Source: Chitinophagales bacterium (lineage in GTDB: Bacteria > Bacteroidota > Bacteroidia > Chitinophagales > S012-47). Taken from it: a DNA stretch of 40,126 nucleotides. Made by a program: the position numbers and the translations under genes. The stretch covers positions 1-40,126 of the forward strand of contig JALSIH010000212.1 in the NCBI GenBank assembly GCA_026981615.1, in the 5' to 3' direction. Shown here piece by piece: positions 17,264 to 20,294 of this stretch (position 1 is the first letter of the stretch; each line of letters opens with the position of its first letter). Under the pieces are notes generated by a model. That model was not told the origin of the DNA, made no database searches, and saw nothing but the letters and a program-made list of their open reading frames with translations.

Positions 17264-17734
17264 ATGGGGAATATGAAGGTGGAATTAAATGATGTAAGTG
17301 CATATTATCTTAAGGAATATTCACAAGAAACTGAAAATTACCTGCTAAGGGGAGAGGCCGGGAGTGATGTGCTTTTTTTGCTCTGCAAAGAATCGGAGGA
17401 GGATCATCCGGAAGAAAGTGAAATGCTGACCCGCCTGACACAGGCCATTGGCCGCAATCCGGAGGAATTGGCCTTCGTGGCTGCAAGGAAGGAAGAACTC
17501 CCGCCCTATAAGCGGCTTAATAAGGATTTCTCTTTTGAATACATGATTGCCTTCGGAATTCAACCCTCTGACCTGGGCCTGAATATCGAAGCAAAAATAA
17601 ATGAGATTGTCCGGATGGGCGGGCGCAGCCTTTTGTTCACCCGCAGCTACCGCAAGCTGGAAGGGGAGCAGGAGTCGAAGGCGGATTTGTGGCGATCGAT
17701 GCAAGTACTTTTTGGACTGAAAAAAAGCAAGTGA
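17264..17734 (+). CDS. HolD-like (DNA polymerase III psi-like) candidate, otherwise hypothetical
   Basis: VLFLLCKES...EMLTRLTQAIGRNPEELAFVAARKEELPPY...FSFEYMIAFGIQPSDLGLNIEAKINEIVRMGGRSLLFTRSYRKLEGEQESKADLWRSMQVLFGL. Overall layout (LL..L....P......; small domain; C-terminal K.xLW..m/L) resembles HolD. TGATG coupling to rdgB. Confidence 0.5.
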   Translation: MGNMKVELNDVSAYYLKEYSQETENYLLRGEAGSDVLFLLCKESEEDHPEESEMLTRLTQAIGRNPEELAFVAARKEELPPYKRLNKDFSFEYMIAFGIQPSDLGLNIEAKINEIVRMGGRSLLFTRSYRKLEGEQESKADLWRSMQVLFGLKKSK

Positions 17735-18321
17735 TGGAATTGATATTTGCCACGGGCAACCCGCACAAAGTGGCGGAAGTGCAGTATCTGCTGCCGGAAG
17801 GAATACGGATAAAGACCCTGCGCGAGATCGGCATCGAAGAGGAGATTCCCGAGACGGGCCAAACGCTGGAAGAAAATGCCCTTTTGAAAGCCGAATACGT
17901 CAGGCAGCGGGGCAGCCGGGATGTATTTGCCGAGGATACCGGACTGGAGGTGAAAGCCCTTCACAACGCACCGGGGGTGTATTCGGCACGCTATGCCGGC
18001 CCCGCGTGCGACAGCCGGGCCAACCTCGTAAAACTCCTGAAAGAAATGGAGGGTCAAAATGACCGGAGGGCCCGCTTCCGCACCGTCATTGCATTGATAC
18101 TAAACGAAGAAATCCACCGTTTTGAAGGCATTGTGAACGGGCAAATTGCTGAAACGGCCAGCGGGAGCGGAGGCTTCGGATATGATCCGGTTTTTGTTCC
18201 GGAGGGATTTGACCGCTCCTTTGCCGAGCTGGGAGACGAGGTCAAAAGCCGCATCAGCCACCGCGCCCGGGCCATGAAAAAAATGATTTCCTTTTTAAAC
18301 ACGCTCCGCATACAACCATAA
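17734..18321 (+). CDS. rdgB: XTP/dITP diphosphohydrolase (RdgB/HAM1)
   Basis: MELIFATGNPHKVAEVQYLLPEGIRIKTLREIGIEEEIPETGQTLEENALLKAEYV...VFAEDTGLEVKALHNAPGVYSARYAG...GSGGFGYDPVFVPEG...ISHRARAMKKM. Confidence 0.97.
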   Translation: MELIFATGNPHKVAEVQYLLPEGIRIKTLREIGIEEEIPETGQTLEENALLKAEYVRQRGSRDVFAEDTGLEVKALHNAPGVYSARYAGPACDSRANLVKLLKEMEGQNDRRARFRTVIALILNEEIHRFEGIVNGQIAETASGSGGFGYDPVFVPEGFDRSFAELGDEVKSRISHRARAMKKMISFLNTLRIQP

Positions 18322-18346: not shown

Positions 18347-18922
18347 GTGCCAATGAGCACGTCCCGTGCAGCATATCCCGAGAAAGAGCTGATCAGGCAA
18401 TGCCTGAAAGGCCGGGCCAATGCACAACGGCAACTCTACGAGCACTTTGCTCCGCGGATGTTTGCCGTTTGCCTGCGCTACGCCAAAAACCGGCACAATG
18501 CCGAGGATATTCTGCAGGAAGGGTTCATTAAGGTGTTCAAATACCTCAAGAACTTCCGGGGCGATGGTTCATTCGAGGGGTGGATGAGGCGAATTTTTGT
18601 GAATACGGCCATCGAGCATTATCGCAAAAATTCCAAAGTTTACAGTGTTGAGGATATCCCGGTCGACTACCAGGAAACAACCGTCAATCCGGCCATTCAG
18701 AATATGAGCGTGGATGAGTTGCTCGAGCTGGTGGAGCGATTGCCAAACGGTTATCGCATGGTTTTCAACCTCTATGTGATGGAGGGATTGAACCACCGGG
18801 AAATAGCCGGAGAACTGGGGATTAGCGAAGGCACCTCCAAGAGCCAGCTGGCACGGGCCAGGGCACAGTTGCAGAAAATGATTGCAGAAAGGGAATTAAA
18901 AGAATATGGAACAGCCATCTGA
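18347..18922 (+). CDS. ECF-type RNA polymerase sigma factor
   Basis: ELIRQCLKGRANAQRQLYEHFAPRMFAVCLRYAKNRHNAEDILQEGFIKVFKYLKNFRGDGSFEGWMRRIFVNTAIEHYRK...LVERLPNGYRMVFNLYVMEGLNHREIAGELGISEGTSKSQLARARAQLQKMI. Confidence 0.95.
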   Translation: MPMSTSRAAYPEKELIRQCLKGRANAQRQLYEHFAPRMFAVCLRYAKNRHNAEDILQEGFIKVFKYLKNFRGDGSFEGWMRRIFVNTAIEHYRKNSKVYSVEDIPVDYQETTVNPAIQNMSVDELLELVERLPNGYRMVFNLYVMEGLNHREIAGELGISEGTSKSQLARARAQLQKMIAERELKEYGTAI

Positions 18923-20114
18923 CCATTCGTTTGACCGGGCATTCAGAGAAAAGATGCAGGGTGTGGAGCGCATGCCCTCGGAGTTGCCGTGGATCGGAAT
19001 CTCGGCCGCCCTGGATCAAATGCGCAGAAAGCGCAGAAGAGGATGGCTCCTGGGCATGGCCTTTGCAGCGGCACTTCTTGCACTGCTGCTTCTCTTCAAA
19101 CCTTTTTCATCAGATAATAGCACGGCCGGTGATGAGCAGTGGATCAATGCATTTTCCGCACTGCCTGCATGGGAAACCCCCGCTCTGCGAGGCGGGACAG
19201 AATCGGGAAGCGGGAACAGCAACAGCGAAGCATCTGCGCTATCGGGCACAGAAAGCACGTCCGCTGCCCCGGCCCTGAAAAGCGGCAGGATGGTAGAGCA
19301 GGGACTTGCTTCGAGCCCGCTTGCCGAGCAGCGAATGTCTTATGCCGCTGCGCGCGGGGATGTGAAGCCGGCCATGAACCCGCATAAGGATCCGGTTCCG
19401 CCCGGCCCGGGCATGCCCGGATACCTCTCTGCCATCCATGCATCGGGCATCCCCCGTGATGAGCAAATGTCTGTTGAACGAAAATCTTTTGTATTGCCTG
19501 ACGGCAGTTTCGATCCGCTTTCCTTCCGCATGCTGCGCATCGGATTTATCGGCATGGCACAGGCGACATCGCTCGGCAGCAGCGGCATTGACAATTTCCT
19601 GGCCGATGCAGCGGGCCGCAAGCGGATGAAGGTACGGGCCGCTTACGGACTGAGTGCCGCCCTTGATTTTTCGCGTTCCTTCGGGGTGGAGGTCAACCTG
19701 CTCATCAGCAGCAGCGAAGGCCAGGCATTTAAGGCCGGTGGCAGGCGCCCCGACCTGCGCAGCAATTATATCCGCGTGCCCGTGATGCTTAAATATCGCT
19801 TTCTGCGTGCCGGAGCCCTTCGCGGACTGCCCGAGGCATTTTGTCTGAAGGCCGGAGTAGAGTACGGGCGCCTCAATTGGGTGAACATGGATGAATTCTC
19901 CAACTTTATTGAGCCTTCACAATTCAACCCGACAGAGTTCGGGGCCGTTGCGGATATTTCTTACGAAAAATATCTCAGTCCGCAACACATTCTTACCAGC
20001 GGCTTTCGTGCACGGCTGGGAAGTCCCGGCAAGGCAGGAAATGCCTCTGTCCGCTCGGCAGCACTTGCATTCTATTTGCAACTGCATTACGGCTTTTTTA
20101 AGAGGAATCGTTGA
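18906..20114 (+). CDS. Single-TM, outer-membrane-beta-barrel-like protein; candidate anti-sigma regulator of the adjacent ECF sigma
   Basis: About 47-aa charged N-terminus, TM RRGWLLGMAFAAALLALLLLFKPF, Ser/Pro/Gly-rich linker, C-terminal alternating beta-type segments (RAAYGLSAALDFSRSFGVEVNLLISSS...YIRVPVMLKYRFL...AGVEYGRLNWV...LAFYLQLHYGFF). Start overlaps the sigma gene by 17 nt. Confidence 0.75.
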   Translation: MEQPSDHSFDRAFREKMQGVERMPSELPWIGISAALDQMRRKRRRGWLLGMAFAAALLALLLLFKPFSSDNSTAGDEQWINAFSALPAWETPALRGGTESGSGNSNSEASALSGTESTSAAPALKSGRMVEQGLASSPLAEQRMSYAAARGDVKPAMNPHKDPVPPGPGMPGYLSAIHASGIPRDEQMSVERKSFVLPDGSFDPLSFRMLRIGFIGMAQATSLGSSGIDNFLADAAGRKRMKVRAAYGLSAALDFSRSFGVEVNLLISSSEGQAFKAGGRRPDLRSNYIRVPVMLKYRFLRAGALRGLPEAFCLKAGVEYGRLNWVNMDEFSNFIEPSQFNPTEFGAVADISYEKYLSPQHILTSGFRARLGSPGKAGNASVRSAALAFYLQLHYGFFKRNR

Positions 20115-20117
20115 TTT

Positions 20118-20294
20118 TCAGTGTTTCCCGCCCGCCAGCGCGGTCAGCAAAAGCGCCATTATTCCGATAATCAAAAGAAGTGAATAGAAAAGGGAGCGCC
20201 AGATGGATACCCCCGTTTCCCGGTGGTTTCGTATGGCCAGAAAAACGGCTGCAAGGATCATGATCACAAGAAGCAAATAAAGCCATGCATTCAT
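20118..20294 (-). CDS. 58-aa predicted two-TM protein, not in the ORF track
   Basis: Manual translation: MNAWLYLLLVIMILAAVFLAIRNHRETGVSIWRSLFYSLLLIIGIMALLLTALAGGKH*. Two hydrophobic helices; 3 nt from the convergent upstream gene stop. Confidence 0.6.
   Translation of the reverse strand: MNAWLYLLLVIMILAAVFLAIRNHRETGVSIWRSLFYSLLLIIGIMALLLTALAGGKH

Follow-up and report, generated by a model that had tools for sequence, protein, structure and literature searches.

A probable Das/Dma-type sigma/anti-sigma pair beside a Ham1-type gene in a Chitinophagales bacterium

Genes at the locus and parts of the partner protein

The window is the whole stretch of DNA analysed (40,126 nucleotides of a Chitinophagales contig); all positions are given in its numbering. 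A gene encoding a Ham1/RdgB-type pyrophosphatase (17734-18321, plus strand; Pfam Ham1p_like, E 8.5e-65) lies directly 5' of an ECF sigma gene of the Das type (18347-18922, plus strand). The sigma protein has 191 aa when read from the GTG at 18347 and 189 aa when read from an alternative ATG at 18353, which may be used in place of the GTG. Its Pfam matches (Sigma70_r2, E 9.5e-18; Sigma70_r4_2, E 5.5e-17) are those of an ordinary ECF factor. The next gene encodes its partner, an anti-sigma of the Dma type (18906-20114, plus strand; 402 aa). According to an ORF check of the window, the sigma and partner reading frames share 17 nt; the ORFs, coordinates and overlap reported in the first-pass annotation proved exact. 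The partner gene is convergent with a gene of 58 aa (20118-20294, minus strand), which encodes two hydrophobic stretches (two-TM), is conserved and is present in a genome of the same genus. RNA families and tRNAs were searched for near the locus and none was found. No NigD-like gene was seen at the window locus.

The Ham1-type gene is context and lies outside the sigma switch. Other families of the order preserve its adjacency to the sigma gene, including in genomes where the partner now lies elsewhere (synteny of loci L196 and L235-L239).

The partner comprises four parts. Residues 1-44 (18906-19037, plus strand) correspond to the N-terminal anti-sigma domain, recognised by the motif D-x2-FR...P-x4-W-x6-L and by a profile match to the N-terminus of Bacteroidales Dma proteins. 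Residues 45-66 (19038-19103, plus strand) correspond to a single transmembrane helix, as indicated by hydropathy, AlphaFold2 and charge. The hydropathy maximum covers residues 46-64 (one TM). Ten K/R are found N-terminal to the TM, with RRKRRR just before it, and none in the next 24 residues; the partner is therefore predicted to be N-in by the positive-inside rule. Residues 67-205 (19104-19520, plus strand; about 139 aa) correspond to a disordered periplasmic tether, as indicated by low pLDDT, fast evolution and composition (65% S/G/P/A/E/T/N/Q). Residues 206-402 (19521-20111, plus strand) correspond to a predicted C-terminal 8-stranded outer-membrane beta-barrel (OMP_b-brl_2, AlphaFold2, Foldseek).

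The AlphaFold2 model of the partner, made from 25 window-family sequences, includes helices at residues 8-17 and 26-63, the second continuing into the TM. Residues 67-196 are modelled as disordered (pLDDT under 50, about 36-46 over most of them). Eight long antiparallel strands are found at residues 209-397 (local pLDDT mostly 72-96). Foldseek matches of this part are OprG, OmpW, OmpA, Ail and OmpX (best E 4e-9). The Pfam family OMP_b-brl_2, whose curated cut-off is 27 bits, is matched by the window partner with 25.3 bits in the Pfam scan and 27.4 bits in the genome search. It is matched by 22 of the 25 window-family members, including the window protein (E up to 0.01). The C-terminal end is predicted to be an outer-membrane barrel of the OmpW/OmpA type. 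The first-pass annotation had proposed a charged N-terminus, one TM, a long linker and a C-terminal barrel, and had suggested a structure prediction of residues about 200-402. Charge and hydropathy, AlphaFold2, Foldseek and Pfam all agree with its proposal. It is extremely unlikely that the partner is an ordinary anti-sigma whose beta-rich end is a soluble periplasmic sensor and no membrane barrel. The marginal Pfam barrel score of the window protein is in line with such a sensor, as are the soluble modules that some relatives do bear (PKD+CHU_C, DUF6265); the good local confidence of the eight strands, the outer-membrane barrels as best Foldseek matches and the barrel families matched by most family members argue against it. 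A soluble C-terminal fold was rejected because AlphaFold2 and Foldseek predict a barrel instead.

The partner has no Pfam match to the FecR domain at E up to 1. It has no Pfam match to the zinc-type anti-sigma domain zf-HC2 either, and its residues 1-45 contain no cysteine. A FecR-type or zinc-type anti-sigma identity was rejected on these missing Pfam matches.

A TonB-dependent receptor (TBDT)/DUF4249 gene pair begins after 333 bp that contain the conserved convergent 58-aa two-TM gene. Its position is kept within the genus; L196, the one same-family relative examined, has a different ECF set there. An alignment of the DNA 5' of the TBDT gene with its same-genus counterpart showed conserved blocks but gave no grounds for proposing an ECF promoter. 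The pair had been put forward as a possible member of the sigma regulon. This is not supported, as it is a separate unit behind the convergent small gene and is not in place in L196. Membership of the same operon was rejected on these grounds. Signalling from the cell surface of the FecI/FecR kind, with the downstream receptor as transducer, is very unlikely; the proximity of the pair and its retention in the same genus are compatible with it, but the partner lacks a FecR domain, the pair is absent from this place in the same-family genome and the 58-aa gene intervenes.

Selection and conservation of the pair

The four parts of the partner evolve at different rates (window versus a species of the same genus). 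The anti-sigma domain (residues 1-44) is 98% identical (dN/dS 0.03) and the barrel 86% identical (dN/dS 0.08). The TM is 73% identical (dN/dS 0.22). The linker is the fastest-evolving part (38% identity, dN/dS 0.33). Strong purifying selection at both ends with a nearly free middle is the pattern expected of a tether. Selection acting separately on the two ends, with a free tether between them, is a simple evolutionary argument that the chain is functional at each end.

When 150 genomes of the order were searched with the partner (E <= 1e-3), 54 had it. The same architecture is found in 25 full-length members within the order, and the two ends remain fused. A Das-type sigma gene is located immediately upstream in 22 of these 25 members, which were collected by partner and not by sigma; the overlap is mostly 8-26 nt. 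In three loci of one genus (L012, L017, L026), the partner has no adjacent sigma gene; in these genomes, a sigma ortholog 56-59% identical to the window sigma is found elsewhere, in its ancestral position beside Ham1. L239 retains Ham1, sigma and partner side by side, and in the same-family genome L196 the sigma is likewise beside Ham1. An unbiased search of named genomes with the sigma yielded 80 loci, 78 of which have a readable downstream ORF. This ORF starts with the W-motif domain in 77 of the 78, and a TM comes next in nearly all. Another figure, 167 of 168 sigma loci with a W-motif partner, is biased and was not relied on, because the partner had served to find some of the loci and the choice of ORF favoured the motif. 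In the order of Parabacteroides acidifaciens, such sigma relatives are found in 75 of 80 sampled genomes. The pair recurs across the order. The sigma/partner pair is not due to chance, given the codon-level purifying selection on both ends and the conserved pairing in other genomes.

The genome of the window carries a second Das/Dma-like pair on contig C94 (L197, 3579-4919, minus strand, sigma just upstream), whose partner matches OMP_b-brl_2 weakly at its C-terminal end (E 0.003). In three genomes (L003/L196, L005, L094), an unrelated second ECF sigma gene is found directly downstream of a Das/Dma pair. Two more genes come after it in L196, and L187, on another contig of the window's genome, has a similar set of three genes.

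Relationship to the Das/Dma family and proposed mechanism

The Dma family is defined by an anti-sigma domain, a TM helix, a long disordered tether and a C-terminal barrel, encoded beside an ECF21 sigma (PMC13088901, the Dma2 paper). Its description is attributed to Pardue et al. 2024 (PNAS 121:e2321910121, as cited in PMC13088901). Published genetics in B. thetaiotaomicron show that the phenotype of dma loss requires the sigma, and nigD1 is a target of Dma1/Das1 (PMC13088901). The family of P. acidifaciens and relatives was used here as a stand-in for B. thetaiotaomicron Dma1/Dma2. The P. acidifaciens pair adjoins a NigD-like gene (PF22221, E 2.9e-26), as expected for a Das1/Dma1 locus.

The window family and the Bacteroidales family were compared with hhalign. 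The first 44 residues match with a probability of 98.2 (E 5.5e-14), the N-terminus plus TM with 99.1 (E 1.7e-18), the barrel alone with 93.9 (E 1.5e-7) and the full-length profiles with 99.1 (E 1.5e-18). In a quick sigma tree, one branch (SH-aLRT 98) sets the Das-type sigmas, among them that of the window and the Parabacteroides sigma beside NigD, apart from seven outgroup ECFs, of which four belong to the genome of the window; details of this tree are unsure because some branches are long. The window family is homologous to the Parabacteroides Dma1-like pair at both ends, as judged from the profile matches.

The locus is a sigma/anti-sigma pair of the Das/Dma kind, a design already described. 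As it matches a recently described Bacteroidota family, it is not a new invention. It shares with Dma1/Das1 and Dma2/Das2 of B. thetaiotaomicron the four-part chain, the adjoining ECF sigma and the Bacteroidota host. It differs from them by its distant sequence (the aligned barrels of the window family and the Parabacteroides stand-in are about 11% identical) and by its neighbour, a Ham1-type gene, no NigD-like gene being seen. A diverged ortholog group of the Das/Dma design of gut Bacteroides can thus be recognised elsewhere in Bacteroidota, with the conserved Ham1 neighbour as its anchor. The same layout is found in M0N98_03760/03761 of P. vulgatus, a sigma gene followed by a gene for an anti-sigma predicted to span the periplasm and to end in an outer-membrane barrel; this sigma gene is up 33-fold on exposure to an envelope-active toxin (PMC9308784). 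The EcfO pair of B. fragilis (Ndamukong 2013, as cited in PMC9308784) likewise consists of a sigma and a periplasm-spanning barrel anti-sigma. Inducers are known for both, the toxin for the P. vulgatus pair and, as cited there, oxidative stress for the EcfO pair.

The window locus very probably works as a Das/Dma-type pair, in which an anti-sigma spanning two membranes holds the ECF sigma and a signal from the barrel frees it. The partner would sit N-in in the inner membrane. Roughly the first 44 residues would bind the ECF sigma and keep it inactive at the membrane, the tether of about 139 residues would cross the periplasm and the C-terminal 8-stranded barrel would reside in the outer membrane. 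The trigger could be a ligand or disturbance sensed by the barrel, or a failure of the barrel to assemble. The signal would run along the tether, the anti-sigma domain would release the sigma or be destroyed, and the freed sigma would transcribe its regulon. Domain order, structure prediction, selection and homology support the idea of the first-pass annotation that a single chain links the cytoplasmic sigma to a domain in the outer membrane and does without a FecR-type relay. A structure model of a natural sigma/anti-sigma fusion, made with sigma rows, gave a pTM of 0.40 and no usable contact information.

In FecI/FecR/FecA, an outer-membrane event also controls an ECF sigma via an inner-membrane anti-sigma, but there the receptor is separate and FecR acts as relay; the window partner, in which no FecR domain was found, carries its outer-membrane part on the same chain as the anti-sigma. 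The E. coli system RseA/DegS/sigma-E resembles the proposed one in that a one-TM anti-sigma reports on the outer membrane. RseA differs in having a periplasmic domain, in needing RseB and DegS and in lacking an outer-membrane barrel.

Release of the sigma may be driven by quality control, which is possible though less likely than not: the barrel would have no external ligand, its BAM-dependent assembly would itself be what is read, and unassembled chains would trigger a protease acting on the anti-sigma, as with RseA/DegS. The small size of the barrel (8 strands) fits this, and so does the P. vulgatus system, which responds to envelope damage and whose induced genes overlap those of a BamA-binding bacteriocin (PMC9308784). 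However, the barrel loops and the differences between families could equally reflect ligands. Such a sensor refines the main sigma-release reading and is no alternative to it.

Cleavage of the chain within the tether after synthesis, giving a free outer-membrane barrel and a short anti-sigma and no double-membrane chain, is improbable. It was kept because in some relatives (L041, L051) the anti-sigma is short and the barrel has a gene of its own, and poor conservation of the tether is consistent with it. Against it, fusion is the commonest state in the sampled sigma tree and the short forms branch among fused ones, the ends stay fused across the order and published Dma models take the chain as intact (PMC13088901).

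C-terminal variants in relatives

The split form consists of a sigma gene, a gene for a short anti-sigma (244-259 aa; about 240-260 aa in round figures) and a separate OMP-like gene. It is found in L041 (1501-3046), L051, L053, L056 and L058; the OMP_b-brl_2 match of the separate OMP gene was checked for L041 and L051.

In other relatives, the same N-terminal domain and TM are joined to another C-terminal end. In Flavobacteriales MAGs, PKD_4 plus a CHU_C type IX secretion signal replaces the barrel in L155 (4537-5499) and L161 (4537-5643), and CHU_C alone replaces it in L142 (4543-5613). The downstream ORFs of L150, L151, L158, L163, L165, L166 and L168 are similar to these type IX forms. In the sigma tree, type IX forms cluster together and are nested among barrel forms. 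SprA (type IX translocon) is encoded by 10 of 10 type IX-form genomes tested, SprA being common in that group. A text search of the literature found no published account of the type IX form, which is weak evidence of novelty.

The N-terminal domain and TM of Dma may, tentatively, be a general Bacteroidota adaptor with swappable outer-membrane contacts, in which the fused barrel is the commonest form and the PKD+CHU_C, TonB C-terminal and split forms are derived. The sigma of the type IX form would then monitor the secretion machine, since its anti-sigma, held in the inner membrane, would itself be a potential substrate. The C-terminal variants make it testable whether a tether plus an outer-membrane contact is the sensor. 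These swaps are a fresher lead than the window locus itself.

Other arrangements are found in single or few loci. In L101 (2020-2901), with the same sigma/anti-sigma arrangement, TonB_C (PF03544, E 3.8e-6) forms the C-terminal end; next come genes for a BlaI-like regulator and a BlaR1-like peptidase, as judged by eye. DUF6265 is found in place of the barrel in L092. The W-motif anti-sigma domain is tandemly duplicated after the sigma in L138, L142, L148, L154, L160, L173, L178 and L185. Sigma, anti-sigma domain and TM are encoded by a single ORF in L212 (1401-2327, minus strand), L217 (1177-2412, minus strand) and L218 (305-1567, plus strand). The sigma/anti-sigma fusions have 414-425 aa, belong to three genomes of one family and show no barrel.
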